From Lacibacter sp. H375 (GTDB lineage: Bacteria > Bacteroidota > Bacteroidia > Chitinophagales > Chitinophagaceae), in contig NZ_JBBKTT010000001.1 of assembly GCF_037892425.1 (NCBI RefSeq), positions 744,001 to 808,000 of the forward strand: DNA of 64,000 nucleotides, in the 5' to 3' direction. The notes beneath the pieces were generated by a model that was given only the letters and a program-made list of their open reading frames with translations, did no database searches and had not been told where the DNA came from. A program made the position numbers and the translations under genes. This document shows, piece by piece, positions 37,561 through 64,000 of the stretch (positions are counted from its first letter, which is position 1; each line of letters begins with the position of its first letter).

Positions 37561-37595
37561 AACCGGTCCTGTGTTTGCAAATGCAGAACCGGGTT
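37561..37595 (+). promoter_or_regulatory. Terminator-like hairpin directly upstream of GH115
   Basis: AACCGGT-C-CTG (37561-37571) pairs with CAG-A-ACC-G-GGTT (37584-37595), with a TTTGCAAA palindrome in the loop. A pyrimidine/T-rich run follows up to the GH115 ATG. It could reduce read-through from the upstream genes or be an RNA processing site. Confidence 0.5.
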
Positions 37596-37607
37596 GCTTC
37601 TTCTTTT

Positions 37608-40166
37608 ATGAAAAAAACGATTTTGCTTGTCGGTTTTTTTTGTGCATACATACAGTTATCGTATGCACAATTGATTGCTGAAACTGCAAGCCCTTCTTCT
37701 ATTGCATTATCCGGTGCAACAATTCTTGTAGATACCAACGATTATACTGTTGTAAAAAAGGCGGCGCATTTTTTTTCTTCCGATATGCAATCGGTTACAT
37801 TGAAAGAAAGCAGTGTAAAAAATGGAATAAGCAAATCGAATAAAACAGCTATTCTCATTGGCTCAGTTGACAGATCCTCTTTCATTAAACAACTCATCCA
37901 GCAAAAGAAAATCTCTGTTGCAGATATCAAAGGCAAATGGGAAGCTTATAAAATACTTACGGTAAAAAATCCATTCAAAGGAATTGACCAGGCGCTTGTG
38001 CTTGTGGGCAGCGACCGAAGGGGAACAGCATTTGCAGTATTTGAGTTGAGTAAACAAATTGGAGTATCGCCATGGTATTGGTGGGCAGATGTTGCTGTGC
38101 AAACAAAAAAAGAAATTTACATCAATGCAAATGCAACGATCAGCGATGCCCCAAAAGTAAAATACCGTGGCATCTTTATTAATGATGAAGCACCTGCACT
38201 CAGCAACTTGAGCAAAGAAAAATTTGGCGGCTTCAATTCGAAATTTTATGCCAAGGTGTTTGAATTAATGCTTCGATTAAAATCAAACTATATCTGGCCT
38301 GCAATGTGGGGCAATGCATTTTATGATGATGATTCACTCAATATTAAAGTAGCAGATGACTATGGCATTGTTATCGGCACATCACATCATGAACCGTTGA
38401 TGCGTGCACATGCCGAATGGGCCAGGTATGGTAAAAAACAAAAATGGAATTACGATAGTACAGAGGCAGGACTGAAAGAATTCTGGCGTGGCGGCATGCA
38501 GCGTGCATGGAACGAAAAAATTGTAAGCGTAGGTATGCGTGGCGATGGTGATGAACCGATGAGTCGTGAAACAGCAACAGCCTTACTGGAGCGTATTGTA
38601 AAAGATCAACGAAAAATTATTGCAGATGTAACCGGTAAGCCCGCAGAAAAAACTCCGCAACTCTGGGCATTGTATAAAGAAGTACAGGATTATTATGATA
38701 AAGGCATGCGTGTGCCCGATGATGTGACCTTGTTATTGTGTGATGACAACTGGGGCAATCTCCGCAAACTGCCAAAGCCAAATGAAAAACCACGCAAAGG
38801 TGGTTATGGTATTTATTATCACTTCGATTATGTGGGCGGTCCACGCAATTACAAATGGCTTAATACAAATCCGCTGCCTCGTATTTGGGAGCAGATGCAT
38901 TTGGCATACGAACACAATGTAAAAGATATCTGGATCGTGAATGTGGGCGACATCAAACCAATGGAACTTCCCATTTCGTTCTTTTTAGATTATGCATGGG
39001 ATCCAACAAAGATTGACGCTGCAGATATTCAAGCATACACAGTAAAATGGGCTGCACAGCAATTCGGAACAAAACATGCAAACACAATTGCTGAATTACT
39101 TGCGAAGTATGCAAAGTATAACAGCAGAAGAAAACCTGAAATGCTTGATGACAAAACCTACAGTTTATTCTCTGGTGAATGGGAAAATGTGGTAAATGAT
39201 TACAAGGATTTGCTGAACAAAGCGGAAGAGATCAACAACGATATACCAACCGAACAGAAAGATGCCTTCTTTCAACTGGTGCTGCATCCAATCAAAGCCT
39301 GCGCCAACCTCAATGAAATGTATTACAACGTTGCAATGAACAAAAATGCATTTAAGGAAAAGTATGAATCAACAGTTGAATATGCTGACAGAGTAAAAGA
39401 GTTGTATAAAAAAGATTCGTTGATCACCATTGAATATCATCAACTCAACAAAGGCAAATGGAACCATATGATGAGTCAAACGCATATTGGCTACACCTAT
39501 TGGCAACAACCTCCATTTAATAAGATGCCGGCAATTCAATACCTGCCTGACGGCACAACATTTAAAGATGAAATTATTTCAATTGGAAGGATACCGCAGG
39601 CAGAATATCCTGCAACTGCTAAGCCGAATAGTTTTATCGAACGCTTCGAAATAGTATCAATTGAAGCAGCGCATTTCACCAAAGCTATCAACAGTAAAAC
39701 CATTTCCTGGAAAGTATTGCCTGATCTTGGCAGAACAGGTGATGCTGTCACAACATTCCCTGTTACTGCACCAGAACAAAAACCGTCGCCTGCAACTCCG
39801 TTTCTGGAGTATGAAATTTATACTTACAGTAAAGACAGTTTTACCATTCATGCATACTTCTCTCCTTCTTTGAATTTCTTTAATACTGAGAATGGATTAC
39901 AGTATGCCATTTCAGTTGATGATGAAGCGCCGCAAATCATCAGCCTGAATAAAGAAGATAAAAACAGCATCAGCGGTATCTGGAATAAATGGGTGGGCGA
40001 AAATATCATCATCAAAACAAGTAAACACAAGATCAGCACCGCCGGTAAGCATGTAATCAAATACTGGATGGTGAACAGTGGCGTTGTGCTGCAAAAAATT
40101 GTTGCAGATTTCGGAAACATGAAACCGAGTTACCTGGGGCCGCCTGAAACAAGAATCAACAACTAA
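37608..40166 (+). CDS. GH115 alpha-1,2-glucuronidase
   Basis: An 852-residue enzyme that removes (methyl)glucuronic acid from internal xylose residues of polymeric xylan. I use the ATG at 37608, giving a clear signal peptide (MKKTILLVGFFCAYIQLSYA). The family core KYRGIFINDEAPAL, NYIWPAMWGNAF and GTSHHEPLMRAHAEW is followed by MRGDGDEPMS. A C-terminal beta-sandwich region starts about residue 640. It complements GH67, which works on oligosaccharide ends. A near-perfect LacI-type operator (37786-37799) lies inside its coding sequence near the 5' end. The next gene is GH10. Confidence 0.94.
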   Translation: MKKTILLVGFFCAYIQLSYAQLIAETASPSSIALSGATILVDTNDYTVVKKAAHFFSSDMQSVTLKESSVKNGISKSNKTAILIGSVDRSSFIKQLIQQKKISVADIKGKWEAYKILTVKNPFKGIDQALVLVGSDRRGTAFAVFELSKQIGVSPWYWWADVAVQTKKEIYINANATISDAPKVKYRGIFINDEAPALSNLSKEKFGGFNSKFYAKVFELMLRLKSNYIWPAMWGNAFYDDDSLNIKVADDYGIVIGTSHHEPLMRAHAEWARYGKKQKWNYDSTEAGLKEFWRGGMQRAWNEKIVSVGMRGDGDEPMSRETATALLERIVKDQRKIIADVTGKPAEKTPQLWALYKEVQDYYDKGMRVPDDVTLLLCDDNWGNLRKLPKPNEKPRKGGYGIYYHFDYVGGPRNYKWLNTNPLPRIWEQMHLAYEHNVKDIWIVNVGDIKPMELPISFFLDYAWDPTKIDAADIQAYTVKWAAQQFGTKHANTIAELLAKYAKYNSRRKPEMLDDKTYSLFSGEWENVVNDYKDLLNKAEEINNDIPTEQKDAFFQLVLHPIKACANLNEMYYNVAMNKNAFKEKYESTVEYADRVKELYKKDSLITIEYHQLNKGKWNHMMSQTHIGYTYWQQPPFNKMPAIQYLPDGTTFKDEIISIGRIPQAEYPATAKPNSFIERFEIVSIEAAHFTKAINSKTISWKVLPDLGRTGDAVTTFPVTAPEQKPSPATPFLEYEIYTYSKDSFTIHAYFSPSLNFFNTENGLQYAISVDDEAPQIISLNKEDKNSISGIWNKWVGENIIIKTSKHKISTAGKHVIKYWMVNSGVVLQKIVADFGNMKPSYLGPPETRINN

Positions 40167-40195: not shown

Positions 40196-41308
40196 ATGAA
40201 ACAATTCATCTTAAAGATTACAGCAGCCGGGGCAATCCTTGCCTCCTTCTCTTATTGTGCTGGAACGAGAAACGTAACAACGAATGCTGCCTCTTTGAAG
40301 GATGCTTATAAAAATGATTTTCTTATTGGCACTGCATTGAGTTCAGGCCAGATCGAAGAGAGAGATCCAAAAGCCCATGCATTGATCGTTCAACAATTCA
40401 ATGCTATTACGCCTGAGAATATTATGAAGGCTGAGATCATTCATCCTGAATGGGACAGATATAATTTTGATCTGGCAGATAAAATTGTTGCTTACGGCAC
40501 AAAGCACAACATGAAAGTGAACGGTCATACGTTGATCTGGCACAGTCAGCTGCCACAGTTTGCAAGAAGAATAAAAGATGTTGATTCATTCAAAACATTT
40601 TTCACCAATCACATCAACACTGTTGCAAGCCGTTACAGTGGTAAGATATTTTCATGGGATGTGGTCAATGAAGCATTGAACGAAGATGGCACCATGCGCA
40701 AATCAATCTTCCTTGATAGAATGGGAGATGGTTTTGTAACCGAAGCTTTTCGACTTGCAGAAAAAGCATCACCCGGTACTGAACTTTATTACAACGATTA
40801 CAATAACGAACAACCAAAAAAACGTGAAGGCTGTCTTGCACTCGTGAAAAAAGTACAGGCTGCTGGTGTGCGCATTGATGGTGTAGGTATACAAGGTCAC
40901 TGGCATTTAGGTCGTATACCGTTCAAGGATATTGAAGAAAGCATTCTTGCTTATCATGCATTGGGTTTGAAAGTAATGATCACTGAGCTTGATATTGAAA
41001 TGCTGCCGAGAAATTTTCAGGGAGCAGATGTAGGTCAACGTCAGGCTTCTAATCCTGCATTGAATCCTTATGCCAATGGTATTCCTGATAGTTTGTTGCA
41101 ACAGCAGGCAACTGATTATGCCAACCTGTTCAAATTATTTTTAAAACACAAGGATAAAATTACACGTGTTACATTCTGGGGTGTAAACGATGGACAAAGC
41201 TGGTTAAATGGCTGGCCTGTTCCCGGTCGCACCAACTATCCACTACTGTTCGATCGTGCATTTAATCCAAAACCTGCTTTTCATTCTGTTATGGCCTTAA
41301 AGAAGTAA
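40196..41308 (+). CDS. GH10 endo-1,4-beta-xylanase
   Basis: A 370-residue xylanase with a single GH10 TIM barrel and no binding module. The signal ends in a lipobox-like FSYC with Cys21, so it is probably an anchored lipoprotein. Glu159 (WDVVNEAL) is the acid/base and Glu264 (MITELDIE) the nucleophile. HTLIWHSQLP is the family substrate-binding motif. It releases xylo-oligosaccharides and aldouronic acids for GH67. It lies 30 bases before the GPH transporter gene, in a run of xylan genes. Confidence 0.96.
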   Translation: MKQFILKITAAGAILASFSYCAGTRNVTTNAASLKDAYKNDFLIGTALSSGQIEERDPKAHALIVQQFNAITPENIMKAEIIHPEWDRYNFDLADKIVAYGTKHNMKVNGHTLIWHSQLPQFARRIKDVDSFKTFFTNHINTVASRYSGKIFSWDVVNEALNEDGTMRKSIFLDRMGDGFVTEAFRLAEKASPGTELYYNDYNNEQPKKREGCLALVKKVQAAGVRIDGVGIQGHWHLGRIPFKDIEESILAYHALGLKVMITELDIEMLPRNFQGADVGQRQASNPALNPYANGIPDSLLQQQATDYANLFKLFLKHKDKITRVTFWGVNDGQSWLNGWPVPGRTNYPLLFDRAFNPKPAFHSVMALKK

Positions 41309-48247: not shown

Positions 48248-49426
48248 ATGCGCAGCAATAAATCAGGCAGAAGAAAATTTTTGCAGGACGCTACAAAAGC
48301 GTCCGGCTTAATGCTGTTTGCACCAATGGCCGGCAAGTTTAAATCTATCCAATCTACAGAAAAGAAAAAGGAACTTGTTATTCCACCGGGCAAAATAAAA
48401 TTTGCAGTCATCAGTATCAATCATCCACATATTTATGGAATGACGGATGCAATCAAAAGAGGCGGTGGAGAATTAGTGGCTGTTTATGCAAAGGAAGCTG
48501 ATTTACTGGCTGCGTTTTCGAAAGCATATCCCGAAGCGAAACTGGCAAAAACTGAAAACGAAATTTTAGAAGATAATTCCATTCAGTTAGTGTTAAGCTC
48601 AGGTATTCCGGATGAAAGAGCTCCGCTCGGTATTCGTGTGATGAAACATGGTAAAGATTATTTAACCGATAAGCCCGGCATTATTACGCTACAACAATTA
48701 GCTGAAGTAAAGAAAGTGCAAAAAGAAACAAAGCGGATCTACTCGATCATGTACAGTGAAAGGCTTGAGAACAAAGGCACAGAAAAAGCAAGTCAATTGG
48801 TAAAGGCAGGTGCAATCGGCAACGTAATACAAACAATAAATTTAGCTCCGCACAGGATCAGTAACAAGTTTGGCACTTCGGGTTTGGCTGTTAGACCCGA
48901 TTGGTTCTGGGATAAAAAACGTTATGGTGGAATATTAACTGATATTGGTTCGCATCAATTTGATCAGTACTTACATTTTACAAATACAACTGAAGCAACT
49001 GTGTTGATGTCGCAGGTAGGGAATGTGCATTTCCCAGAAGCTCCCCTATTCGAAGATTTTGGAGATGTGATGCTGAGCGGAAATGGTGGCGTGGGTTATA
49101 TAAGGGTAGATTGGTTTACACCCAACGGGCTCGATAGCTGGGGCGATGGACGATTAACCATTTTAGGTACCGACGGATATATTGAGGTAAGAAAGAACAT
49201 CGACATTCTTTCCGGCAAAAAAGGTGGTAATCAATTATATCTCGTTAACCAAAAAGAAACGCTTCATATGGATTGTAACAATGAAGCACTTCCGTTTGGG
49301 CCATTATTTGTTGATGATGTTTTAAACCGGACTGAAACTGCCATGAGCCAGGCGCATTGTTTTTTAGCAACAGAGCTTGCTTTAATAGCACAGAAAAAAG
49401 CAAAGGTTCTGAATTTGAAGAAATAA
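48248..49426 (+). CDS. Tat-exported Gfo/Idh/MocA-family protein 1
   Basis: A 392-residue NAD(P)-dependent oxidoreductase-like protein. It opens with a twin-arginine signal (SGRRKFLQDATKASG), so it should be folded with its cofactor and then exported. The Rossmann domain (about 50-170) contains KFAVISINHPHIYGM and KDYLTDKPG with the conserved Lys. The C-terminal alpha/beta domain contains GGILTDIGSHQFDQ. It could be a periplasmic oxidoreductase, an epimerase, or an NAD-dependent glycosidase. It lies 17 bases after GH3 and 42 before a second Gfo/Idh gene. Confidence 0.85.
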   Translation: MRSNKSGRRKFLQDATKASGLMLFAPMAGKFKSIQSTEKKKELVIPPGKIKFAVISINHPHIYGMTDAIKRGGGELVAVYAKEADLLAAFSKAYPEAKLAKTENEILEDNSIQLVLSSGIPDERAPLGIRVMKHGKDYLTDKPGIITLQQLAEVKKVQKETKRIYSIMYSERLENKGTEKASQLVKAGAIGNVIQTINLAPHRISNKFGTSGLAVRPDWFWDKKRYGGILTDIGSHQFDQYLHFTNTTEATVLMSQVGNVHFPEAPLFEDFGDVMLSGNGGVGYIRVDWFTPNGLDSWGDGRLTILGTDGYIEVRKNIDILSGKKGGNQLYLVNQKETLHMDCNNEALPFGPLFVDDVLNRTETAMSQAHCFLATELALIAQKKAKVLNLKK

Positions 49427-49468
49427 ATTCCTGTCATACGATTGAAGTGGTCAACTAAACATATTGCC

Positions 49469-50866
49469 ATGCAAAACGAAAAAAGAAAAGGTATCGGAAG
49501 AAGAAAATTTCTAAAAGATACCATGAAAACAGCGGCAGGCACTGCAATTGCCTTGCATTTACCATCCATTGTACCTGCAAGTGTGTTTGGAAAAAATGCA
49601 CCAAGCAATCGTATTAATGTTGCAGCTATTGGTACGGGCCGAATCTCACGTGGTCATGATATGCCTGGTGTTTGGAAACATAATTACACACAGATCATGG
49701 CTGTTTGTGATCTTGATCTGAAGCGAGCAACAGAAGGCAAGCAATTAGTAAATGACTTTTACACAAAGAGAGATAACAAACCTTACGATGGTGTAAAAGT
49801 TTACACAGATTTTCGTGAACTCTTATTGAATAAAGATATTGATGCAGTATTGATCAGCACACCTGATCATACACATGCAATGATTGGTGCAGCAGCAGCA
49901 CGTGCAGGCAAACATATCTATATGCAAAAGCCTGCATCATTAACGATTGCTGAGGGAAGGATCATCAGTAACGTAGTACAGAAAAGTGGCGTGAAATTTC
50001 AAATAGGAAGTCAGCAACGAAGCAGTGATCAATTCCGTTATGCAGCAGAACTTGTCCGTAATGGACGCATTGGTGAATTGAAAACAGTTTATGTTGGTTT
50101 ACCCGGTGATCCTCCTGGTGGTAGAAAAGAGGAGATGCCGCTTCCTGCAAATTTCAATTATGACATGTGGCTTGCATCAACACCTGAAGTTTATTACACA
50201 GAAGACAGAGTGCATCCGCAAGTTGGTTATGGTCGGCCTGGTTGGTTACGTTGCGAACAGTTTGGTGCAGGTATGATCACAGGTTGGGGTGCGCATCATA
50301 TCGACAGTGCACATTGGGGCATGGGTATGGAAGCAAGTGGCCCTTTAGAAATATGGGCTCAACATGTTGAATTTGCAAAAGATGGTTTATGGGATGTACA
50401 CGGCATTTTTAAAACAGGTGCGAAATATGCAAGCGGTGTTACAATGATGGTGAGTAATGAATTTCCCAACGGGATAAAATTTGAAGGAACCAAAGGATGG
50501 ATCTTTGTTTCAAGAGGCGATTACCAGGCAACATCAAGCGACCCCAATGCAGGAACTGTGCAGGCCAAGAAAATTGATGCAAGCGATCCCAAACTACTTA
50601 CTTCTGTCATTGGCGAAAATGAATTTCATTTTACTGTAAGCAAAGATCATCATGGTAATTGGCTGGAAGCAATTCGTGATAACAAGAAAACAATTGCACC
50701 TGTTGAAGAAGCACATCGTGCATGCTCTGCATGTTTACTTCATCACATCTCCATGAAGCTGAAACGAAAATTGTATTGGGATCCTGCAAAAGAACAATTC
50801 AAAAATGATGCAGAAGCGAACAGCATGTTATCAAGACCACAGAGAAAAGCTTATGAGGTGAAATAA
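49469..50866 (+). CDS. Tat-exported Gfo/Idh/MocA-family protein 2 (GH109-like length)
   Basis: A 465-residue protein. I start it at the ATG at 49469; the longer frame needs a TTG. The twin-arginine motif is GRRKFLKDTMK (residues 10-20). The Rossmann motif is AAIGTGRISRGHDMPG and the catalytic-region motif HIYMQKPASLTIAEGR. WGAHHIDSAHWGMGME is like that of the Tat-exported Gfo/Idh proteins around GH109, which use NAD+ in a redox-neutral cycle. The true substrate is unknown. It precedes the cupin gene by 15 bases. Confidence 0.85.
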   Translation: MQNEKRKGIGRRKFLKDTMKTAAGTAIALHLPSIVPASVFGKNAPSNRINVAAIGTGRISRGHDMPGVWKHNYTQIMAVCDLDLKRATEGKQLVNDFYTKRDNKPYDGVKVYTDFRELLLNKDIDAVLISTPDHTHAMIGAAAARAGKHIYMQKPASLTIAEGRIISNVVQKSGVKFQIGSQQRSSDQFRYAAELVRNGRIGELKTVYVGLPGDPPGGRKEEMPLPANFNYDMWLASTPEVYYTEDRVHPQVGYGRPGWLRCEQFGAGMITGWGAHHIDSAHWGMGMEASGPLEIWAQHVEFAKDGLWDVHGIFKTGAKYASGVTMMVSNEFPNGIKFEGTKGWIFVSRGDYQATSSDPNAGTVQAKKIDASDPKLLTSVIGENEFHFTVSKDHHGNWLEAIRDNKKTIAPVEEAHRACSACLLHHISMKLKRKLYWDPAKEQFKNDAEANSMLSRPQRKAYEVK

Positions 50867-55185: not shown

Positions 55186-56742
55186 ATGAACTTGAATAAG
55201 CTTGTATTCCTGTTAGTGACAATGTTCGGAGTTAACTCGATTGCAACGGCACAGGTAACTACAATTGACAGCAGTAAATATCCAAAGCTCACTGTATTCA
55301 ATGTACAACAGGATCAGGCAAACATGATGCAGCAATTGGGTATTAAAAAATTACGACCTGGAAAAAGCGGTAATGAGAAAGATCCGAATCATGCGAATTA
55401 TGATGAGGCGTTGGCGAATCCTTGTCCGCAGTTGCCCGATGTACTTACATTAAAGAATGGAAAGAAAGTGACAACTGCTGATATGTGGTGGAAGCAACGC
55501 AGGCCTGAGTTGATTGAAGAGTTTGAACGGGAAGTGTATGGACGTATTCCAAACAATGTTCCAAAAGTAACTTGGACCGTTAAGATACTCGACAGAGAAG
55601 TAGTGAATCGCATTCCTGTTATTGCAAAAGAAATCGTTGGGCATGCAGATAACAGTGCCTACCCATTGATCAATGTTGATATAAAAATGGTGTTGGTTGT
55701 TCCAACAAATGTAAAAGGACCTGTACCTGTATTGATCATGTTTGGCAGACCAGTATTACCAGCACCTGCACAACCATCGCCTGATGATCTGGAGAAAATA
55801 AATGCAGCATACAAAGAAATGATGATCAAGTCTGATCCTGCAATGAAAGAAATTTTTGAAAAGTATCCCGCTTATCAACCCATTACACGTCTCCCCGCTC
55901 CTAACTTTTTTGCACCTGCAAAACCCGATGAAGAGTTAACACCACAGGAAAAATTATTGGCTGCGGGCTGGGGTTATCTAACTATCGATCCCGGAACAAT
56001 ACAACCGGATAACGGTGCAGGATTAACAAGAGGAATCATTGGCTTAACCAATATGGGTCAACCACGCAAGCCGGAAGATTGGGGTGCATTGCGAGCATGG
56101 GGATGGGGTGCAAGTCGTGCATTGGATTATTTGGAAACAGAACCATTAGTGAATGCAAAGCAAGTTGGCATTGAAGGTGTATCAAGATATGGTAAAGCAG
56201 CATTGGTAACAATGGCATTTGATCAACGTTTTGCAGTTGGATTAATTGGTTCATCAGGAAAAGGTGGTGCAACATTGCATCGTCGTGTGTTTGGTGAGTC
56301 AGTGGAAAATTTAACCGGAGGTGGCGGTTATCATTGGATGGCCGGTAACTATTTAAAATACGGAGCCGAAGAATCAACCTTTGGCAAAAAAACAGGTTGT
56401 GATCTTCCTGTTGATTCGCATGAACTGATTGCATTATGTGCACCACGTCTAACATTCATCAGTTATGGCATTCCGGAAAAAGGTGATGCTAACTGGCTCG
56501 ATCAAAAAGGAAGTTACCAGGCAACCATTGCTGCAGGCACAGCATTCAAACTATTAGGTGCAAAAGATCTTGGTGTAAGTAATGATTACATGAATGAAAA
56601 AATGCCACCGATGCTTACCGATATGTTGAATGGACATTTGGCATGGCGTCAACATGATGGAGGACACACTGATGCGCCCAACTTTAAATTCTTTATTCCA
56701 TGGGCAAGCAAGTGGTTGAACTATGAAAAGAAAACCCAATAA
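55186..56742 (+). CDS. CE15 glucuronoyl esterase
   Basis: A 518-residue serine esterase that cuts the ester bond between xylan-linked methylglucuronate and lignin alcohols. A signal peptide covers residues 1-22. The family motif GVSRYGKAAL contains the nucleophile Ser333, and GCDLPVDSHELIALCAPR and HDGGHTDAP supply the His and binding residues (His494). An insert with many prolines lies at about 185-255, as in bacterial members. It is the last gene of the plus-strand run, 8 bases after the acetylesterase, and is followed by a strong bidirectional terminator. Confidence 0.95.
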   Translation: MNLNKLVFLLVTMFGVNSIATAQVTTIDSSKYPKLTVFNVQQDQANMMQQLGIKKLRPGKSGNEKDPNHANYDEALANPCPQLPDVLTLKNGKKVTTADMWWKQRRPELIEEFEREVYGRIPNNVPKVTWTVKILDREVVNRIPVIAKEIVGHADNSAYPLINVDIKMVLVVPTNVKGPVPVLIMFGRPVLPAPAQPSPDDLEKINAAYKEMMIKSDPAMKEIFEKYPAYQPITRLPAPNFFAPAKPDEELTPQEKLLAAGWGYLTIDPGTIQPDNGAGLTRGIIGLTNMGQPRKPEDWGALRAWGWGASRALDYLETEPLVNAKQVGIEGVSRYGKAALVTMAFDQRFAVGLIGSSGKGGATLHRRVFGESVENLTGGGGYHWMAGNYLKYGAEESTFGKKTGCDLPVDSHELIALCAPRLTFISYGIPEKGDANWLDQKGSYQATIAAGTAFKLLGAKDLGVSNDYMNEKMPPMLTDMLNGHLAWRQHDGGHTDAPNFKFFIPWASKWLNYEKKTQ

Positions 56743-56805: not shown

Positions 56806-57933
56806 TTAGTGAATTTTTATTTTCTTACCGGTTGCCATTGCCTCATAAACTGCTGTAATTAATTTCACATCTCTTCTTCCCATCTCGCCGGGAACAATAG
56901 ACGGTTGATTTTTCATCATAGATAGTGCAATACCATCCATCTGTTTTGCCTGCTGATTAATATTTGCAAAACTCATTGGGCCTTCAGATGTTTTTCCTCT
57001 CAACCCTCCGTAGTTATAAGCCGGCGATAATTCAAACGTGCCTTTCTCCGCTTCTGCTCTCAGGAAATTCATGTTACCTCCGTAGCTTGCTTCACCTTCT
57101 GCAATTAAACCGTTAGGCATTTCAAATTGCCATTTCAGCGATTGTTCTACTTCTTTAAATTTATCTGCTATTGTTTTAGGTCCTTCCTGTGCGGTAACTG
57201 CAATCGGTACCATACCAGTTGTATAACAAATACCCTGTACACAATAAATACCGAGATCCTGCATAGGGCCTCCGCCGGCCAAATCTTTTTTCAATCGCCA
57301 CTGGTTTGGATCACCTATTATAAAACCAAATCCTGCTGTCATTTTCTTTATATCGCCATAAACTTTTGTTGTACCCAACCGCATCATTTCTAAATTATGC
57401 GGTTCAAATTGTAACCGATAGCCAATAGATAATTGCTTACCGGCTTTTTTTGACGCAGCAATCATTTTATCACAATCCTCAACAGTAAGCGCCATGGGTT
57501 TTTCGCAGATCACATGTTTACCTGCTGCAAAACCACGGACTGTATATTCTGCATGCATACTGTTCGGTAGAACGACGTAGATAATGTCGATATCAGGATT
57601 GTCTTTTATAGAGTCATAATTTTCGTAGTTGTAAATATTCTTATCAGGAATATTATATTTCTCTTTCCATACTGGAATTTTCGACGGCGTTCCTGTAACG
57701 ATACCTGCGAGATAACAATGTTCAGTTTGCTGCAATGCAGGTGCTAATTGTCCGCCTGCATATCCGCCAAGTCCCACTAAGGCGATGCCAAGCTTTCCTT
57801 CCTTTTTCTGTTGCATGAAACGTTGTTTTGATTGTTGTTCATTACAGGAATTATTGGCAGAGAGTAATGGAAGACTCAAGCCTGCCAATCCGATCTGTTG
57901 TAAAAACTTCCTTCGTGAATGTTGCTGACCCAT
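56806..57933 (-). CDS. Tat-exported Gfo/Idh/MocA-family protein 3
   Basis: A 375-residue oxidoreductase-like protein with a twin-arginine signal (SRRKFLQQIG, residues 6-15). The Rossmann motif is GIALVGLGGYAGGQLAPAL, and VICEKPMALTVEDCDKMI contains the conserved Lys. The C-terminal domain carries GGPMQDLGIYC, with a match to glucose-fructose oxidoreductase-like proteins, which are periplasmic, bind NADP tightly and transfer hydride between two sugars. It is the last gene of the minus-strand sugar-acid operon. Substrate unknown. Confidence 0.87.
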   Translation of the reverse strand: MGQQHSRRKFLQQIGLAGLSLPLLSANNSCNEQQSKQRFMQQKKEGKLGIALVGLGGYAGGQLAPALQQTEHCYLAGIVTGTPSKIPVWKEKYNIPDKNIYNYENYDSIKDNPDIDIIYVVLPNSMHAEYTVRGFAAGKHVICEKPMALTVEDCDKMIAASKKAGKQLSIGYRLQFEPHNLEMMRLGTTKVYGDIKKMTAGFGFIIGDPNQWRLKKDLAGGGPMQDLGIYCVQGICYTTGMVPIAVTAQEGPKTIADKFKEVEQSLKWQFEMPNGLIAEGEASYGGNMNFLRAEAEKGTFELSPAYNYGGLRGKTSEGPMSFANINQQAKQMDGIALSMMKNQPSIVPGEMGRRDVKLITAVYEAMATGKKIKIH

Positions 57934-57978: not shown

Positions 57979-58782
57979 TCATTGTTTGTTCCCCTTTCGT
58001 CTTTGATTGATATAGTCTGCTACTTCCAACATTGGTGCCACATAAATGTCCTTCTCTTTTTGTTTGATATAGCGAAGTATTTTCCGATGATTCTCTATGG
58101 ATACATCAAGTCCGTTGCCACCACCAACCCCATGAAACAAAATTACCAGCAGCGAACTAGTTTGTATAGCTTGGTCGACCCATGCTTTCATTTCGTCAAA
58201 GCTGTGATTATTCACCACGTAGCAATCTACGTTGTAGAGATCAATTTCGTTCATCTTATGCATTTCATTACGCACAGCTCTTGCTGCAACAAAATCTTTT
58301 TTCATGCCATTGATGAAAGATGAATCAGCGATTTTCATATCGCCACATGTGAAAGCAAAGGTTCGTTTTGTTTTTCCATCCAGTGATTGCAGAAAGAGAT
58401 TTGTCATGCGCATTTCGTTTTCCATGCGTTTAACAGAATAGTTGTTCATATCGTTTTCCTTGCTCACCCATTCACGGCCCGGCATATTACCAATACAGGG
58501 ATGAAACAACGTATGATTACCAAGTTCATGACCTTTCGCAGGAAGTTTTTTCCACTCCTTCAATCTTGTTTGAACCGATTGTGAAAACGCAGTTATATAA
58601 AATGTTGCTTTTAATCCTAACGAATCTAATACCGGTGCAGCATTATCTAAATGCTGATCAATAGCATCATCGTAAGTAAGAACAACTGCACATTTCTTTC
58701 CCTTCCATACATTATTGGTTTGTGCATATACACAAGCAAACAAACTGAAAACGCAACAGACTGCAAAAATTATCTTGTTCAT
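57979..58782 (-). CDS. Exported polysaccharide deacetylase (NodB fold)
   Basis: A 267-residue protein with a signal peptide (MNKIIFAVCCVFSLFACVYA). NodB-homology motifs are visible: TYDDA (Asp38, Asp39) and H90-X3-H94 (GNHTLFHPC), a metal-binding triad. ILFHGVGG near the end is the last motif. It is probably a carbohydrate deacetylase, perhaps on acetylated xylan or chito-oligosaccharides. It lies between the dehydratase and the Gfo/Idh genes. The usual second-position Phe and terminal Gly of TFDDG are changed here. Confidence 0.85.
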   Translation of the reverse strand: MNKIIFAVCCVFSLFACVYAQTNNVWKGKKCAVVLTYDDAIDQHLDNAAPVLDSLGLKATFYITAFSQSVQTRLKEWKKLPAKGHELGNHTLFHPCIGNMPGREWVSKENDMNNYSVKRMENEMRMTNLFLQSLDGKTKRTFAFTCGDMKIADSSFINGMKKDFVAARAVRNEMHKMNEIDLYNVDCYVVNNHSFDEMKAWVDQAIQTSSLLVILFHGVGGGNGLDVSIENHRKILRYIKQKEKDIYVAPMLEVADYINQRRKGNKQ

Positions 58783-58801: not shown

Positions 58802-60082
58802 TCATTCAAAAAAAGGAACACCCGGCACTGCATATTTTTTCATAGCAGTTTCATTGATATCAACCCCTATCCCGGGTTTCTCCGACAAGGTAATGTAACT
58901 ATCTTTCACCCACTCTCCATCATACGTTACAATTTCCTTGAACATCGGGTTTGTATGAAAATAAGATTGCCATTCCAATATTAAAAAATTAGGAACAGAA
59001 GCACATACATGTGCCGATGCCATTGCGCCGAGGAACGACGCAACCATATGTGGAGCAAACGGCGTGTAGTATAAATTTGCAAGGTTAGCAATACGCTGGC
59101 CTTCACCAAGTCCACCTGCTTTTTGCAGATCGGGCATCACAATATCAACGGCTCCTATTTCAAGTAATCGCCTAAAACCATAAGCCAGGTAATGATTCTC
59201 CCCTGCGCAAATAGGTGTGCTTGTGCTTTCTGTAATTAGTTTATATGCTTCTACATTTTCTGCAGGTATTGGTTCTTCCAGCCACATTAAATTCAGGGGC
59301 TCTAAACGTTTGGCTACCGCTTGTCCTGTTACTGCATCATAACGGCCATGCATATCCACACATATATCAATGTTTGGGCCAACTGCTTCTCTTGCTGCTG
59401 CCATTTGATCGTACATACGTTGCAGCTCCATGGGACTTGCAGTCCAGTTATACGCATCATATTTATTGGGATCGTTTGCCTGATCAAGATCAAATTTAAT
59501 TGCATTGAAACCCATCTTCTTTGACGTCAATGCTGCTTCTGCAAAATCTTTCGGTGTTGGTAAATTGCGTTGATACAAAGCCGTATCGCAATACACTCTT
59601 ATTTTATCACGAAATTTTCCACCCAATAATTGATACACCGGAATGTTCAATGATTTTCCCGCAAGATCCCATAATGCTGTTTCAATGGCTGATAACACAG
59701 CAATATACATTCCTCCCTGAGCTCCCTGGAAAAAACCACCTTTGCGGATATCTTCAAACAACCGATGTACATTCAACGGACTTTTGCCTTTTAACCTGGC
59801 CCCGAAGTTTTTCACCAAATGATATGTACCGGGAACTGCATCTACTCCTTCTCCCACACCATAAATATCCTGGTTGGTATAAATTTTTACAAACAGGCTT
59901 CCACGTATGTAACCACACTTAATGTCTGTAATTTTCAGATCAGATGGTGCAGATGATTTAGGTGTGCGTTCAACTGCTTCTTTGTATCCTTCTCCAAAAA
60001 CCTGCATTGAAGCGATTGGCATGAGAGCTGTTGCAAGAGCAGCTTTTGATAAAAAAGATCTTCGTGAGTTATTGTTGCTCAT
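58802..60082 (-). CDS. Tat-exported enolase-superfamily sugar-acid dehydratase
   Basis: A 426-residue mandelate-racemase/muconate-lactonizing-type protein. It opens with a twin-arginine motif (SRRSFLSKAA), which is unusual for enzymes normally found in the cytoplasm. The capping domain is at about 50-165. Metal ligands are Asp243 (DMHGRYD, with His245 as in galactonate/mannonate dehydratases), Glu269 or Glu270 (EEPIP) and Glu295 (GENHY). His345 lies in PHMVAS. It likely dehydrates an aldonic or uronic acid to a 2-keto-3-deoxy acid. The substrate is unknown. It follows the RraA-like gene by 44 bases. Confidence 0.87.
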   Translation of the reverse strand: MSNNNSRRSFLSKAALATALMPIASMQVFGEGYKEAVERTPKSSAPSDLKITDIKCGYIRGSLFVKIYTNQDIYGVGEGVDAVPGTYHLVKNFGARLKGKSPLNVHRLFEDIRKGGFFQGAQGGMYIAVLSAIETALWDLAGKSLNIPVYQLLGGKFRDKIRVYCDTALYQRNLPTPKDFAEAALTSKKMGFNAIKFDLDQANDPNKYDAYNWTASPMELQRMYDQMAAAREAVGPNIDICVDMHGRYDAVTGQAVAKRLEPLNLMWLEEPIPAENVEAYKLITESTSTPICAGENHYLAYGFRRLLEIGAVDIVMPDLQKAGGLGEGQRIANLANLYYTPFAPHMVASFLGAMASAHVCASVPNFLILEWQSYFHTNPMFKEIVTYDGEWVKDSYITLSEKPGIGVDINETAMKKYAVPGVPFFE

Positions 60083-60126
60083 ATAAAATGTTGATTGGAT
60101 GAAATATAATGTTTACATGATCTGCG

Positions 60127-61071
60127 TTACCATGTTCTGTCTTTTAAATATTGTTGTATCAATTCCTTCGGCACGGGTAATTCACTAATATGATCGTTGA
60201 GCCACTTTGAAAAATCACGTTCAATTTCGTCGCTCCATCTTGCATCAATTTGTCCGGCAGTATATTTTCCTTCACGCAAACGTTGATGACCAAACATATC
60301 TCTTAGCCTGACGATCTCTGATGTAGTAACAACCTTTTCTGCAAGATGCGGCGGAACAAATACAACAACTCCAAGTTTACCGAGTACAACATCACCAGGC
60401 ATTACTGTAACTCTTCGAATGCGTGTGGGATGATTAATGCCTACGATCATTGTTGTTAGATCACCGGGAGGATTATGAAATGATGGATCGTAACTGGTAT
60501 AATAAGAAGTGAAGCCGGGAATATCTTTTAATCCTTCCACATCACGCAATGCTCCATCGTACACAATTCCGTTTCCTGTTTTTGCATAGATGGCATTGCC
60601 AACATTATCTCCAATAGTTGGCCCGTTCTTTTGTGCACCAAACTGATCGGCCACATATACATCGCCTTTTACAAGTATATCAACAGCCCATGTATTTTGT
60701 CCACGCTTCCCCGCTTTTTTCCCAACTGAATCGATAGCTTTCCAAACATCAGGTCGGCCAGGCATAAACGTTGCGGTTACAGCACGACCAACTAATACAC
60801 TGTCGGGATGAATCATTTGCCAGCCTTCAGCAATCTGATATGCATAGCCTGCATTTTTCATCACTGCCCATGCTTCTTCAACACTTACATTTTTCATTCG
60901 TTTTAAAATCTGATCGGGAACTTTTGGTCGTCCGTCGGGGAACCGTTCACCTGTCCAAAGTGGTGTTAATGAGATCAGATGCTCTTTGCTGATCTGTACT
61001 TCCTGTCCTCGCAGTTGTTGAAGCAATACAAGAAACAACAACAGTAGCAATCCGTTTTTAATTTTTATCAT
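60127..61071 (-). CDS. Exported RraA-family protein (aldolase-like)
   Basis: A 314-residue member of the RraA/HMG-aldolase family with a signal peptide (LLLLLFLVLLQQLRG). The family active-site segment is GDNVGNAIYAKTGNGIVYDGALRD, with Arg176 and Asp177 matching the Arg-Asp pair of 4-hydroxy-4-methyl-2-oxoglutarate aldolase. True RraA proteins are about 160 residues and cytoplasmic, so the export signal and the 120 extra residues set this one apart. It may cleave a keto-acid produced by the neighbouring dehydratase. Confidence 0.82.
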   Translation of the reverse strand: MIKIKNGLLLLLFLVLLQQLRGQEVQISKEHLISLTPLWTGERFPDGRPKVPDQILKRMKNVSVEEAWAVMKNAGYAYQIAEGWQMIHPDSVLVGRAVTATFMPGRPDVWKAIDSVGKKAGKRGQNTWAVDILVKGDVYVADQFGAQKNGPTIGDNVGNAIYAKTGNGIVYDGALRDVEGLKDIPGFTSYYTSYDPSFHNPPGDLTTMIVGINHPTRIRRVTVMPGDVVLGKLGVVVFVPPHLAEKVVTTSEIVRLRDMFGHQRLREGKYTAGQIDARWSDEIERDFSKWLNDHISELPVPKELIQQYLKDRTW

Positions 61072-61108
61072 GGCGATTGTTTTTATTGAATGATCTTTTT
61101 TGATTGTT

Positions 61109-62197
61109 TTATTTTTTTTCCACAGGTGGACGGTTATGCCACCAGCTTGCCAATGCCGAACCTGTAATATTCATTAATGGACCAAACACAGCAGCGGCTA
61201 ACCCAATGGTTGAAATTTTTCCAAGCTCTTTTGCAATGCCCGATGCTAGCCCTGCATTCTGCATGCCTACTTCAATGGCAATGGTTCGGCAATCTCTTTC
61301 ACTCATTTTAAATAAGCGACCGCTCCAATAGCCCAACAGGTATCCAAACGTATTATGTGCCAATGCAACAACAGTTAACAGTAATCCAATTTTGAGCAGG
61401 TTATCTCTTCCGGAAGCAACAATGATTGTAACAATGCAGGTAATGGCAAACATCGAAACAAATGGCATAGCACTATCAAGCCACTTAATTTTTCCTTTTA
61501 ATAATTTATTGAATAACAAACCTGCGCCAATAGGAATGATGATCATTTTAAAGATATCCCACATCATTTTCAATACATCTATTTCAATTAAAGCACCGGC
61601 AAATAACTTCATCAATAACGGTGTAACAAACGGGGCTATCAACGTAGTGATGGATGTAATGGTAATTGATAATGCAAGATTTGCTTTTGACAAGTAGGCC
61701 ATTACGTTTGAAGCCAGGCCGCTTGGTGAACAACCGATCAAGATAATCCCTGCTGCTATTTCGGAAGGGAAATTTGTTGCTGAAGCCAGTATAAAACCAA
61801 GCGACGGCATAATAATAAACTGACTTGCAACACCTATCATTACTCCTTTTGGCGATTTCACAACAGCAGCAAAATCGTTTACACTCATAGACGAACCCAT
61901 TCCAAACATGAGCAGCTGAATGAAGGGAATAATTGTACTGCTTAACTGAAAATTACCCCAGGTGGTAAAATATTCAGGATGCCACATAGCTAACACAACT
62001 GAAGCTAAAATAATGGCAGTGAAGGAGAGACCCTTTAACAATGCAATACCTCTGAAAGCAAATGCAAGACTTAAAAAAAATAAAACCAGGAACCATCCTG
62101 ACATGTTTATATTTTCTGTTAGCCAAAATACCGTAGCCAATGATGCAAATAATACAGCAAGTGCAGAAAAAAGAACCGGTTTTACTTTACGCTCCAT
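61109..62197 (-). CDS. Bile-acid:sodium symporter (BASS)-family transporter
   Basis: A 362-residue inner-membrane protein with about 9-10 membrane segments. I start it at the ATG at 62197 (MERKVKPVLF); the longer frame needs a TTG. The family signature GCSPSGLASNVMAYLSKANLALS is at about residues 170-192, and QNAGLASGIAKELG near the end is the conserved sodium-site region. BASS proteins import organic acids such as pyruvate or pantoate with sodium. Here an organic acid released in the periplasm is a reasonable substrate, inferred from the neighbours. Confidence 0.88.
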   Translation of the reverse strand: MERKVKPVLFSALAVLFASLATVFWLTENINMSGWFLVLFFLSLAFAFRGIALLKGLSFTAIILASVVLAMWHPEYFTTWGNFQLSSTIIPFIQLLMFGMGSSMSVNDFAAVVKSPKGVMIGVASQFIIMPSLGFILASATNFPSEIAAGIILIGCSPSGLASNVMAYLSKANLALSITITSITTLIAPFVTPLLMKLFAGALIEIDVLKMMWDIFKMIIIPIGAGLLFNKLLKGKIKWLDSAMPFVSMFAITCIVTIIVASGRDNLLKIGLLLTVVALAHNTFGYLLGYWSGRLFKMSERDCRTIAIEVGMQNAGLASGIAKELGKISTIGLAAAVFGPLMNITGSALASWWHNRPPVEKK

Positions 62198-62289
62198 TTT
62201 TATTTTGGTCTTAATTAGTGATTGTGAAATTTGGAATTTCTTTTCGATATGGATTTTTTTCAAATAAAAATCAACTTATGCTGATGTTA

Positions 62290-63807
62290 CTACTGCTGTT
62301 GCAACGCAGCAATATCTGCAAACTCACTCGCCAGCTTGGTACTTAACCGTTCAAATATTTTGTAATACTTCAAATACATTTTATTGTTCTGTTTATCCGG
62401 TGTAGCAAGGTCGGGAAGCACCACTGTTTTCGCTGCTTCATCAAGAGATTTGTAAATACCCATTTCAGTTGCGCTTAATAAGTACGCTCCATAACTTACG
62501 CTATGATAATTCTGTCTTAAGCGAACTGGTTTGTTATAAATGTCTGCTACCATTTGTGTAAAGAATGGCAACGTACCGAAACTTCCGTTTATTGACAGGC
62601 TGTTGATGCTCCTGTGTTCTTCAAGTGTTTTTCCAATACTGTATAGTTCATAAATAATACCTTCAATAGCAGCTCTTACAAAATGTGCTTTCTCATGTTT
62701 AATATTTATTCCGAAGAATACACCTCTTGCATTGGCGTTCCATATTGGTGCACGTTCGCCCAGTAAATAAGGAAGAAAGATCAATCCGTCGGAACCTGCA
62801 GGTACTTTCGATGCATCCTGAATTAGTTCAAGCATTGTATGTTCTAAGTCAAATGGATTTTTAAAATCACCAAACTGTCGGGTGAACCATTCAAAGATGA
62901 CGCCACCATTATTCGTGGGTCCACCTGATATGTATTTATTCTCAGTAAGCAGGTAATTAAAGAATCGTTGTTTATCATCCTGCATGACCTTATCACTCAC
63001 TACTCTCACTGCTCCACTGTCTTCAACTGTAATTGTTGCTACACCTTCTTCATTTACACCATCGCCAAGAACGGCCATACAGCCATCACTTGAACCAACC
63101 AGTATTTTTGTATCTGCCGATAAACCCAGCGATGCCTGGTAAGCTTTATTTAATTTTCCCACTTTTGTATCTACAGGTACTAACTCTGGCAACATCGCAG
63201 CAGTAATGCCAGCAAACTTGAGTGACTCTGTTTCCCATTTAATTTTATGAATATTCAACAAACCTGTAGCGGAAGCAATACTGTAATCAATAACATATTC
63301 TCCTGTTAGCTGCTGCAGAATATATGCCTTGAGAGATAAAAATTTACTTACCTGTTTAAACTTTTCCTTTTCATTGTTTTTGATCCACGCAATTTTTGTA
63401 AGCGGCGACATGGGATGTAATGGTGTGCCGGTAGCACTGTAGATTTTTTTACCAAGGGGTGAATTCTTAAGTTCAGCTGCTTCTTTGTTTGCCCTGTTAT
63501 CGGCCCATGTAATTGCATGGCCCATTGGATTACCTCTTTTATCTACGGCAAGTACACTATGCATCGATGAACTGAAACAAATGCATCTTACTTTATACTT
63601 TCTTGGATGCAGTACATCATTCAACAGGTTCTTCAATACATAAAGCATCGTAATGAATATCTGATCGGCATCCTGTTCACTGTAATCAGGCTCACTATGA
63701 AAAGTAGGACAGTACCCCTTCAATGAGCCAATGATGTTCCCATCAAGATCAAATGCGTAAACTCTTACTGCATTGGTGCCGAGTTCTATAGTGATGATAC
63801 ATTCCAT
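62290..63807 (-). CDS. FGGY-family carbohydrate kinase, gluconokinase-like
   Basis: A 505-residue cytoplasmic kinase. The N-terminal ATPase segment is IELGTNAVRVYAFDLDG. SSSMHSVLAVDKRGNPMGHAITWADNRA is the gluconokinase signature, and the catalytic Asp is probably in VGSSDGCMAVLGDG. LPYLLGERAPIWN is the family C-terminal motif. It probably phosphorylates gluconate or a related sugar acid. It begins 11 bases after the AraC-type gene ends and precedes the BASS symporter, so the operon joins regulator, kinase, transporter and exported enzymes. Confidence 0.9.
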   Translation of the reverse strand: MECIITIELGTNAVRVYAFDLDGNIIGSLKGYCPTFHSEPDYSEQDADQIFITMLYVLKNLLNDVLHPRKYKVRCICFSSSMHSVLAVDKRGNPMGHAITWADNRANKEAAELKNSPLGKKIYSATGTPLHPMSPLTKIAWIKNNEKEKFKQVSKFLSLKAYILQQLTGEYVIDYSIASATGLLNIHKIKWETESLKFAGITAAMLPELVPVDTKVGKLNKAYQASLGLSADTKILVGSSDGCMAVLGDGVNEEGVATITVEDSGAVRVVSDKVMQDDKQRFFNYLLTENKYISGGPTNNGGVIFEWFTRQFGDFKNPFDLEHTMLELIQDASKVPAGSDGLIFLPYLLGERAPIWNANARGVFFGINIKHEKAHFVRAAIEGIIYELYSIGKTLEEHRSINSLSINGSFGTLPFFTQMVADIYNKPVRLRQNYHSVSYGAYLLSATEMGIYKSLDEAAKTVVLPDLATPDKQNNKMYLKYYKIFERLSTKLASEFADIAALQQQ

Positions 63808-63818
63808 TTGATTATTAA

Positions 63819-64000
63819 TTAATTTGTTCCAATATGATTTTTTCTGAATTCACTGGGTGTATAGCCGGTGAGTTTCTTAAATGTTGTAGAAAAATGTTGC
63901 GATGAATAAAAGCCGGTATCAAGTGCAATATCAGTTAAGCTTATACCCGGTGTTTTCAATAATTTGATTGCTTCTGAAATACGGATATTGATCAAATAGT
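63819..64000 (-). CDS. AraC-family transcriptional regulator, C-terminal part (cut by window edge)
   Basis: The minus strand carries 59 codons and a TAA stop, with the frame open to the window edge. The residues include ISEAIKLLKTPGISLTDIA, then TGFYSSQHFSTTFKKLTGY and TPSEFRKNH, which is the second helix-turn-helix of AraC/XylS proteins. The stop is 11 bases from the ATG of the kinase, so it is probably the first gene or regulator of that operon. The ligand-binding part lies beyond the window. Confidence 0.9.
   Translation of the reverse strand, partial: YLINIRISEAIKLLKTPGISLTDIALDTGFYSSQHFSTTFKKLTGYTPSEFRKNHIGTN

Follow-up and report, generated by a model that had tools for sequence, protein, structure and literature searches.

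Sugar acids are dehydrated and then cleaved in several known pathways. In the non-phosphorylative Entner-Doudoroff and Dahms pathways, an aldonate dehydratase and a 2-keto-3-deoxy acid aldolase of the HpaI or DHDPS type act in the cytoplasm. The fungal galacturonate pathway is taken to be cytoplasmic, its aldolase is of another family than RraA, and we know of no dedicated keto-acid importer in it. In direct oxidation of the PQQ glucose dehydrogenase type, only the oxidation of the sugar is periplasmic, and the cell then imports the acid. To our knowledge, bacteria hydrolyse and oxidise sugars outside the cytoplasm, and the splitting of the carbon chain is cytoplasmic. The MR/MLE dehydratases of the enolase superfamily and the RraA family are normally cytoplasmic; so is the HMG/CHA aldolase, an enzyme of aromatic breakdown without a signal peptide. 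Here, a locus of Lacibacter sp. H375 is described in which an MR/MLE dehydratase and an RraA-like protein, both with predicted export signals, are encoded beside a BASS transporter and an FGGY sugar kinase. The stretch analysed (the window) is 64,000 nucleotides long and belongs to a 4,809,142-base contig, one of the 3 that make up a genome of 5,079,137 bases.

An interpretation made earlier without database searches (the sequence-only reading) had proposed that an aldonic or uronic acid is dehydrated and cleaved outside the inner membrane and that the product is imported. This model was partly supported: the gene unit, the conserved signals and the catalytic residues were found, and the substrate and the cleavage to pyruvate are what we infer. 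The analysis suggests that part of the sugar-acid breakdown of many Bacteroidota would take place outside the inner membrane.

The dehydratase-RraA pair and its signal sequences

As had been claimed, the four genes are open reading frames (ORFs) in one set on the minus strand: the kinase (62290 to 63807), the BASS transporter (61109 to 62197), the RraA-like protein (60127 to 61071) and the dehydratase (58802 to 60082), with gaps of 92, 37 and 44 bases in that order. All positions are window coordinates, and loci of relatives are labelled with L and a number. The BASS start was set at the ATG at 62197 instead of the TTG at 62263 in the ORF list, which better matches the lengths of the relatives.

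Two samples were used. The first comprised 195 genomes of the host's family, searched for RraA relatives at E 1e-20, in which RraA proteins with at least 66 percent identity to the window protein were called type A. The second comprised the best 80 of 226 loci from a named genome collection, which are best matches, not a random sample, and include many close relatives. Genes in these loci were called by an ORF script in which the longest ORF wins, and some genes were masked as a result; cluster c36, read as an ORF antisense to RraA, masked RraA in some loci.

The RraA-dehydratase pair is a real, conserved unit, beyond chance. RraA relatives of any type were present in 47 of the 195 family genomes and, at E 1e-40, in 24 of 395 genomes of the phylum. 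Type-A RraA and type-A dehydratase occurred in exactly the same 28 of the 195 genomes (Fisher p 1.8e-34, kinship ignored; a 37 percent dehydratase match in genome G127 was left out of the type-A count). In the locus sample, a dehydratase of the cluster was found in 77 of 80 loci; in two of the remaining three (L091 and L140) the contig ends less than 240 bases from the match, and in L145 none was nearby. The type-A RraA genes recognised in the 80 loci numbered 79, none being recognised in L099, and for 73 of the 79 an immediate neighbour on the same strand was a type-A dehydratase. Among the exceptions, BASS stands between the two genes in L078, and in L146 and L148 the dehydratase lies beside RraA on the opposite strand. 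The conserved co-occurrence that the sequence-only reading had left to be looked for was thus observed.

A second, paralogous pair (type B) is often encoded in the same locus, with an RraA mostly 44 to 51 percent identical and a dehydratase of about 498 residues that is 31 to 34 percent identical. Non-type-A RraA genes had a dehydratase beside them in 27 of 35 cases, of type B in 26. Adjacent same-strand pairs joined A with A in 73 of 73 and B with B in 26 of 27, where the script favoured the same type if both neighbours were dehydratases. A plasmid collection, searched for signs of plasmid spread, held no match.

Signals were judged by a rule combining hydrophobicity and motif, with control families, and by conservation. 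The dehydratase starts with MSNNNSRRSFLSKAALATALMPIASMQVFG, which is of the twin-arginine translocation (Tat) type, SRRSFL being followed by a hydrophobic stretch. The twin arginines were kept in all 123 aligned dehydratases (at least 380 residues, identical ones dropped), and 119 of 125 dehydratases had a Tat-like start by the rule. With this motif, the hydrophobic stretch and a TatC encoded in the host genome, the dehydratase is a predicted Tat substrate. The RraA-like protein starts with MIKIKNGLLLLLFLVLLQQLRGQ, of Sec type, with a short basic start and a leucine-rich stretch that is likely cut near QEVQ (signal residues 1 to about 22); 132 of 141 RraA proteins had a hydrophobic N-terminus. 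Both signals named in the sequence-only reading were seen again, in the two proteins themselves and in their relatives. The same rule scored none of the FGGY (0/48), FAH (0/19), IlvD (0/16), Eda (0/6) and KDG-kinase-like (0/3) proteins among the cytoplasmic neighbours, and found a Tat-like start in all 13 members of a Gfo/Idh cluster. The host's four other MR_MLE_C profile matches, read from the first Met, showed no signal peptide by eye. One of the four is below the cut-off and appears by eye to be enolase; two have hydrophobic in-frame codons before the first Met, which were taken as untranslated.

The enzymes, the transporter and the proposed route

The dehydratase matched both Pfam MR_MLE domains above the cut-off (C-terminal, 194.1 bits, cut-off 29.4; N-terminal, 38.1 bits, cut-off 22). 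With the galactonate dehydratase model of NCBIfam it scored 244.6 bits, below the cut-off of 311, and since none of the other matched models reached its cut-off either, no named activity was given. Residues D243, H245, E269, E295, D318, H345 and E370 were kept in 83 of 83 type-A dehydratases; in enzymes like galactonate dehydratase, we take these positions to bind the metal or, as D-x-H and His-Asp, to serve as acid/base residues. In type-B dehydratases, Tyr replaces the His of D-x-H in 38 of 40. By its domains and these residues, the window protein is classed as an acid-sugar dehydratase of the enolase superfamily, of the galactonate/mannonate dehydratase-like kind. By the subgroup rule, an active site of the D-x-H type speaks against a hexarate (glucarate or galactarate) as the direct substrate, which is not favoured.

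The RraA-like protein has 314 residues, compared with the 152 positions of the Pfam domain that it matched at 54.8 bits (cut-off 24.5). The estimate of about 120 extra residues was thus fair, and the solved long relatives, HMG/CHA aldolase and RraAS2, exceed the domain length likewise. Its nearest named relatives are those of Lacibacter luteus (93 percent) and L. cauensis (90 percent). D155, R176 and D177, which presumably form the D-x20-R-D metal/enolate site, were kept in all 84 type-A sequences. R176-D177 was present in 141 of 141 RraA sequences, and D155 was kept in 31 and lost in 26 of the 57 that are not type A (type B/C). In HMG/CHA aldolase, Arg-123 and Asp-124, according to extracts of PMC5065237, are essential and bind the metal, and R176-D177 of the window protein matches these two residues. 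An AlphaFold2 model built from 41 sequences had a pLDDT (predicted local distance difference test score) of 90.6, and Foldseek returned 26 PDB matches to it at E 0.001 or better, with RraAS2 at the top and HMG/CHA aldolase (3noj) at rank 8. Against the NCBIfam model for HMG/CHA aldolase (ligK_PcmE) the protein scored 31.7 bits, below the cut-off of 304.5. The domain, the predicted fold and the D-x20-R-D site fit a class II pyruvate aldolase, for which the protein is a candidate.

RraA was also found in another setting. In 7 of 20 hand-picked paralogous loci (L058, L061 and L067 to L071), it is accompanied by an exported SelA-like pyridoxal-phosphate (PLP) enzyme and an exported amidohydrolase, with an exported RidA in 5 of the 7 and BASS in 5. 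The SelA-like enzyme had a Tat-like start in 8 of 8 cases and RidA in 5 of 5. Such loci could plausibly represent an exported module that deaminates amino-sugar acids, another route to a 2-keto-3-deoxy acid, and they lend support to the view that RraA acts on acids of this kind.

The transporter matched Pfam SBF at 134.6 bits (cut-off 24.3), the PanS model at 236.1 bits (below its cut-off of 400) and the bass model below cut-off. For ASBT-NM, the accessible text of PMC10645422 gives a pantoate site of Thr112, Ala113, Asn265, Gly267, His294 and Asn295, and names plant BASS proteins as carriers of pyruvate, glycolate and 2-keto acids. When the window protein was aligned to ASBT-NM (3zuy/8oyf), Ala113, Asn265, Gly267 and Asn295 were found to be kept, as they were in all 74 aligned BASS proteins. 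The view of this transporter as an importer of organic acids gained ground in that its type binds a small 2-hydroxy acid and four of six site residues are kept, and was weakened by the two residues that differ; it is a candidate 2-oxo acid importer of the ASBT-NM/PanS type. BASS was present in 59 of the 80 loci, SusC in 48, FGGY in 37 and AraC in 37.

The kinase, which has no export signal, is gluconokinase-like (TIGR01314, 437.4 bits, below the cut-off of 648.55), and its best solved relative is a gluconate kinase, 3gbt. An FGGY kinase does adjoin BASS, as the sequence-only reading had it; with that score and a presence in 37 of 80 loci, the sugar-acid role assigned to it remains weak.

These features led to a model of an exported sugar-acid module performing dehydration, aldol cleavage and 2-oxo acid import, to which we assign a probability of about 0.58. 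Exported dehydrogenases (the Tat-type Gfo/Idh protein here, PQQ dehydrogenase and SMP-30 in relatives) would oxidise glucuronoxylan sugars to a sugar acid in the periplasm. There the Tat-exported, metal-dependent dehydratase would remove water, or an equivalent leaving group, from the sugar acid to give a 2-keto-3-deoxy acid, which the Sec-exported RraA-fold class II (metal-enolate) pyruvate aldolase would split into pyruvate and a short aldehyde. BASS would then import the 2-oxo acid. This may be pyruvate, or, because some relatives have a KDG-kinase-like gene with Eda, or FAH with aldehyde dehydrogenase, near BASS, it may in those genomes be the uncleaved 2-keto-3-deoxy acid.

Several results weigh against this model. 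In L131, L132 and L135, BASS is followed immediately by a KDG-kinase-like gene and Eda (by family search in L131 and by cluster in the others), an arrangement that would be unneeded if all of the keto-deoxy acid were cleaved outside, and clustering also assigns IlvD, FAH, aldehyde dehydrogenase and GntP genes to the operon of L115. Both the dehydratase and the RraA-like protein scored below every NCBIfam cut-off that they matched. In BASS, the window has Leu in place of Thr112, a Thr that 1 of 74 proteins keeps, and all 74 have Met in place of His294; within flanks of at most 9 kb, 21 of the 80 loci showed no BASS and 43 no FGGY. The signal rule also scored 1 of 16 aldehyde dehydrogenases and 2 of 43 AraC proteins as positive. 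Finally, the RraA-dehydratase distance correlation was weak, 0.28 in 62 loci (RraA-BASS 0.24 and dehydratase-BASS 0.31 in 47 loci), and some pairs combine near-identical RraA with differing dehydratases, as in Lacibacter luteus (L074), whose RraA is 93 percent and dehydratase 70 percent identical to those of the window. Tight co-evolution is therefore not supported by the distance test; it looks as if one dehydratase can be exchanged for another while RraA stays the same.

An alternative that we regard as unlikely accepts export and dehydration. The RraA-like protein would here be no aldolase, acting for example as a keto-acid decarboxylase, tautomerase or epimerase, and BASS would import the intact 2-keto-3-deoxy acid, to be finished in the cytoplasm by KDG kinase and Eda (hexonates) or by FAH dehydratase and aldehyde dehydrogenase (pentonates). 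The genes following BASS speak for it, with the KDG-kinase-like protein of L131 at 491.5 bits (cut-off 700) and its Eda at 376.1 bits (cut-off 275), and relatives in L132 and L135 by cluster. By cluster, L043, L097 and L115 also contain both FAH and aldehyde dehydrogenase, and an IlvD relative was found in 28 and an FAH relative in 27 of the 28 type-A genomes. However, KDG-kinase-like genes occur in only 3 and FAH in 15 of the 80 loci, all 84 type-A proteins have the aldolase residues of the RraA fold unchanged, and RraA also accompanies the exported PLP-enzyme set with no MR/MLE dehydratase nearby. A further reading has the signals not leading to export, or export being incidental, and sees in the genes a sugar-acid pathway of the ordinary cytoplasmic kind; it would agree with the usual location of both families. 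It is nevertheless very improbable, given that all 123 aligned dehydratases have the twin arginines and 132 of 141 RraA proteins a hydrophobic N-terminus, with nearly none in the cytoplasmic neighbours, that TatC is present, and that the host's other MR_MLE_C matches lack a signal from the first Met.

Glucuronoxylan as the probable source of the sugar acid

The operon is longer than the four genes first recognised; those four stand, and an AraC gene lies upstream and two further genes lie downstream. The AraC-type regulator, named by eye from its sequence and probably the first gene, occupies 63819 to 64000 on the minus strand and continues past the window to about 64721 (L002:7819-8721, L002 being the host locus, which extends beyond the window end); its cluster occurs in 37 of 80 related loci. 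Downstream on the same strand are a polysaccharide-deacetylase-like protein (57979 to 58782; Sec-type start by eye), which by its spacing belongs to the same operon but is rarely conserved there (a cluster of 6 members), and a Gfo/Idh/MocA dehydrogenase with a Tat-type signal (56806 to 57933). The latter is a candidate maker of a sugar lactone in the periplasm; its nearest NCBIfam model is xylose dehydrogenase Gfo6 (154.7 bits, below the cut-off of 350). Because the spacing from AraC to Gfo/Idh is 11 to 92 bases throughout, these seven minus-strand genes suggest one operon.

The plus strand of the window holds a glucuronoxylan locus with a GH67 alpha-glucuronidase (34624 to 36762), an SDR protein, a GH115 alpha-glucuronidase (37575 to 40166), a GH10 xylanase (40196 to 41308), an MFS transporter, a GH43 protein and a CE15-type glucuronoyl esterase (55186 to 56742; PF22244, 99.8 bits, cut-off 27). 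Divergent genes past the window end (L002) encode SusC- and SusD-like proteins (by eye), aldehyde dehydrogenase, an IlvD/EDD-type dehydratase, SMP-30 (a lipoprotein by eye), an esterase and an FAH-family protein, the last cut by the L002 end. The three Weimberg-type domains beyond AraC (IlvD type, FAH type and aldehyde dehydrogenase) presumably make up the parts list of a Weimberg-type pentose pathway. The exported pair is outside this gene set.

Across the 195 family genomes (kinship ignored), GH67 occurred in 65, namely in 27 of the 28 with the pair and 38 of the 167 others (p 3.4e-14). GH115 was found in 67 genomes (24 of the 28), GH10 in 90 (26), IlvD in 72 (28), FAH in 68 (27) and UxaC in 130 (28). 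Both Weimberg-type genes accompanied the pair in 27 of 28 genomes (p 3.5e-16). Among genomes with both Weimberg-type genes, GH67 still separated carriers of the pair (p 3.2e-5); among GH67 genomes, the Weimberg-type genes did so (p 4.4e-7), and GH10 (p 1) and GH115 (p 0.24) did not. In the 19 genomes that have only a distant RraA type, the GH67 link was absent (p 0.38) and the Weimberg-type link was found (p 3.1e-5). Because the pair tracks GH67 and the cytoplasmic Weimberg-type genes, each in 27 of 28 genomes, the sugar acid probably derives from glucuronoxylan. Candidates are an aldonate of the backbone sugars and a derivative of the (4-O-methyl)glucuronate side chain.

Three other accounts were considered. 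Replacement of an IlvD-type aldonate dehydratase by the exported enzyme was rejected, an IlvD relative being present in 28 of 28 type-A genomes. The second account, that the pair handles glucuronate where the usual route through UxaC is missing, was also rejected, UxaC being present in all 28. That the pair simply follows xylanase is not favoured, as GH10 adds nothing given GH67 (kinship ignored).

A side-chain origin, in which the acid comes from the (4-O-methyl)glucuronic acid of xylan and not from a backbone aldonate, concerns only the substrate, is compatible with the exported module and is held tentatively. It draws on the GH67 link (27/28 against 38/167), which holds among genomes with both Weimberg-type genes, on the finding that GH10 adds nothing given GH67, and on position: an alpha-glucuronidase lies on the pair's contig in 12 of 28 genomes, some contigs being short, and within 100 kb in 10 of these, and for contigs of more than 600 kb the count is 7 of 9. 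In L147 (Spirosoma arboris, L147:8986-18788), RraA, dehydratase, MFS, CE15, UxuA, GH67 and SDR genes run in one direction, and a CE15 relative is present in 4 of the 80 loci. Against this, the family-wide link is not matched by close linkage, a GH67 relative being found inside the 9 kb flanks in 1 and GH115 in 0 of the 80 loci; the Weimberg-type link is as strong as that of GH67 (p 3.5e-16 compared with 3.4e-14) in genomes that are related, kinship being ignored; UxaC is present in 28 of 28; GH115 adds nothing given GH67 (p 0.24); and the L147 dehydratase forms a separate branch of its own. A more specific variant, which we consider improbable, would have the pair remove the 4-O-methyl group of xylan glucuronic acid. 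GH67 or GH115 would free 4-O-methylglucuronate in the periplasm, and an exported dehydrogenase would oxidise or reduce C1 to give an open-chain acid. The dehydratase would then remove the proton beside the carboxylate, and the adjacent 4-O-methyl group would leave as methanol, in place of water, after which the RraA aldolase would split the keto-deoxy acid and BASS would import pyruvate.

Genes that may supply the acid were seen around the pair. PQQ dehydrogenase occurs in 13 of the 80 loci, an SMP-30/cupin protein in 12 and the Gfo/Idh cluster in 8. The PQQ dehydrogenase has a cytochrome domain, and a hydrophobic N-terminus was found in 14 of 16 PQQ and 12 of 13 SMP-30/cupin members. In the Flavobacteriia-type loci L107, L109, L116, L118 to L120 and L125, an exported PQQ dehydrogenase with a cytochrome c domain and an exported cupin adjoin the pair, and the SMP-30/cupin fusion is present in all of these except L116. 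This set is a candidate periplasmic oxidation unit. Within the xylan locus of the window, RRKFL-type starts were seen in three genes (48248-49426, 49442-50866 and 56806-57933); the second and third are Gfo/Idh/MocA proteins by Pfam and the first by eye only, and the second weakly resembles the glycoside 3-dehydrogenase BT_2158 family (141.6 bits, cut-off 750).

Other neighbours recur. In both settings, a small exported DUF4440 protein is often encoded next to BASS or RraA (16 of 80 loci; L131:8470-8928, L107:6061-6522 and L071:11721-12146). In L131 (812-14209) the gene line reads SusC, SusD, type-B dehydratase and RraA, DUF4440, type-A RraA and dehydratase, BASS, KDG-kinase-like and Eda; L132 and L135 have a similar line, with SusC seen in L131 and L135. 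In L104 (4617-9705, a metagenome-assembled genome) and L110 (Maribacter), the pair is followed by a Gfo/Idh protein of the same cluster and a zinc-type dehydrogenase (by eye), and further by an L-fuconolactonase-like protein, an L-fucose dehydrogenase and a permease; the first of these three scored below its cut-off and the second above, and the permease was named by eye.

Comparison with known systems

In the extracts returned from the open-access literature, with subscription papers and preprints outside the scope, neither an exported RraA-like aldolase together with an exported MR/MLE dehydratase nor a route for 4-O-methylglucuronate was described. The system is likewise not described in the available portions of PMC11036162, PMC7953866 and PMC10963439; in that of PMC10963439, the name RraA labels a gene in the legend to a figure about archaeal clusters. 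If the proposed module is real, some Bacteroidota carry part of their sugar-acid catabolism into the periplasm. This could spare sugar-acid uptake systems, couple sugar oxidation to the respiratory chain and keep short aldehydes out of the cytosol, and it would give testable functions to RraA-like, MR/MLE, BASS and DUF4440 proteins, which are usually annotated by family name alone. It might also answer what becomes of the 4-O-methylglucuronic acid of hardwood xylan; should the demethylating variant be true, the result would be a complete extracytoplasmic, C-C-cleaving sugar-acid pathway that also explains removal of the methyl ether.

Three components can be compared with described proteins. 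The window dehydratase shares its domains, metal ligands and D-x-H and His-Asp residues with the D-galactonate and D-mannonate dehydratases, but it scores below their curated cut-offs and has a Tat signal. The HMG/CHA aldolase of Pseudomonas putida (3NOJ) has in common with the window RraA the fold and the Arg-Asp site with a preceding Gly-Asp, whereas identity in the fold alignment is 17 percent. With PanS/ASBT-NM (PMC10645422, as far as its accessible text goes), the window BASS shares sequence and four of the six pantoate-site residues, but it has Leu for Thr112 and Met for His294, is below the curated cut-offs and is linked to exported sugar-acid enzymes.

At the level of pathways, the nearest known parallels in logic are the fungal galacturonate route and the bacterial Dahms and non-phosphorylative Entner-Doudoroff pathways. 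The fungal route, as extracts of PMC6353982 present it, resembles the proposed one in that a sugar-acid dehydratase and then an aldolase yield pyruvate and an aldehyde, with no phosphorylation. The window pair fits the Entner-Doudoroff and Dahms pathways by homology, but both proteins bear export signals that predict another place, and the aldolase candidate has the RraA fold. Unlike in direct oxidation by PQQ enzymes, dehydration, and probably C-C cleavage too, are proposed to occur in the periplasm. The chemistry would thus be known by homology and would take place in a cell compartment not reported for it, the place and the aldolase family setting it apart from the known pathways.

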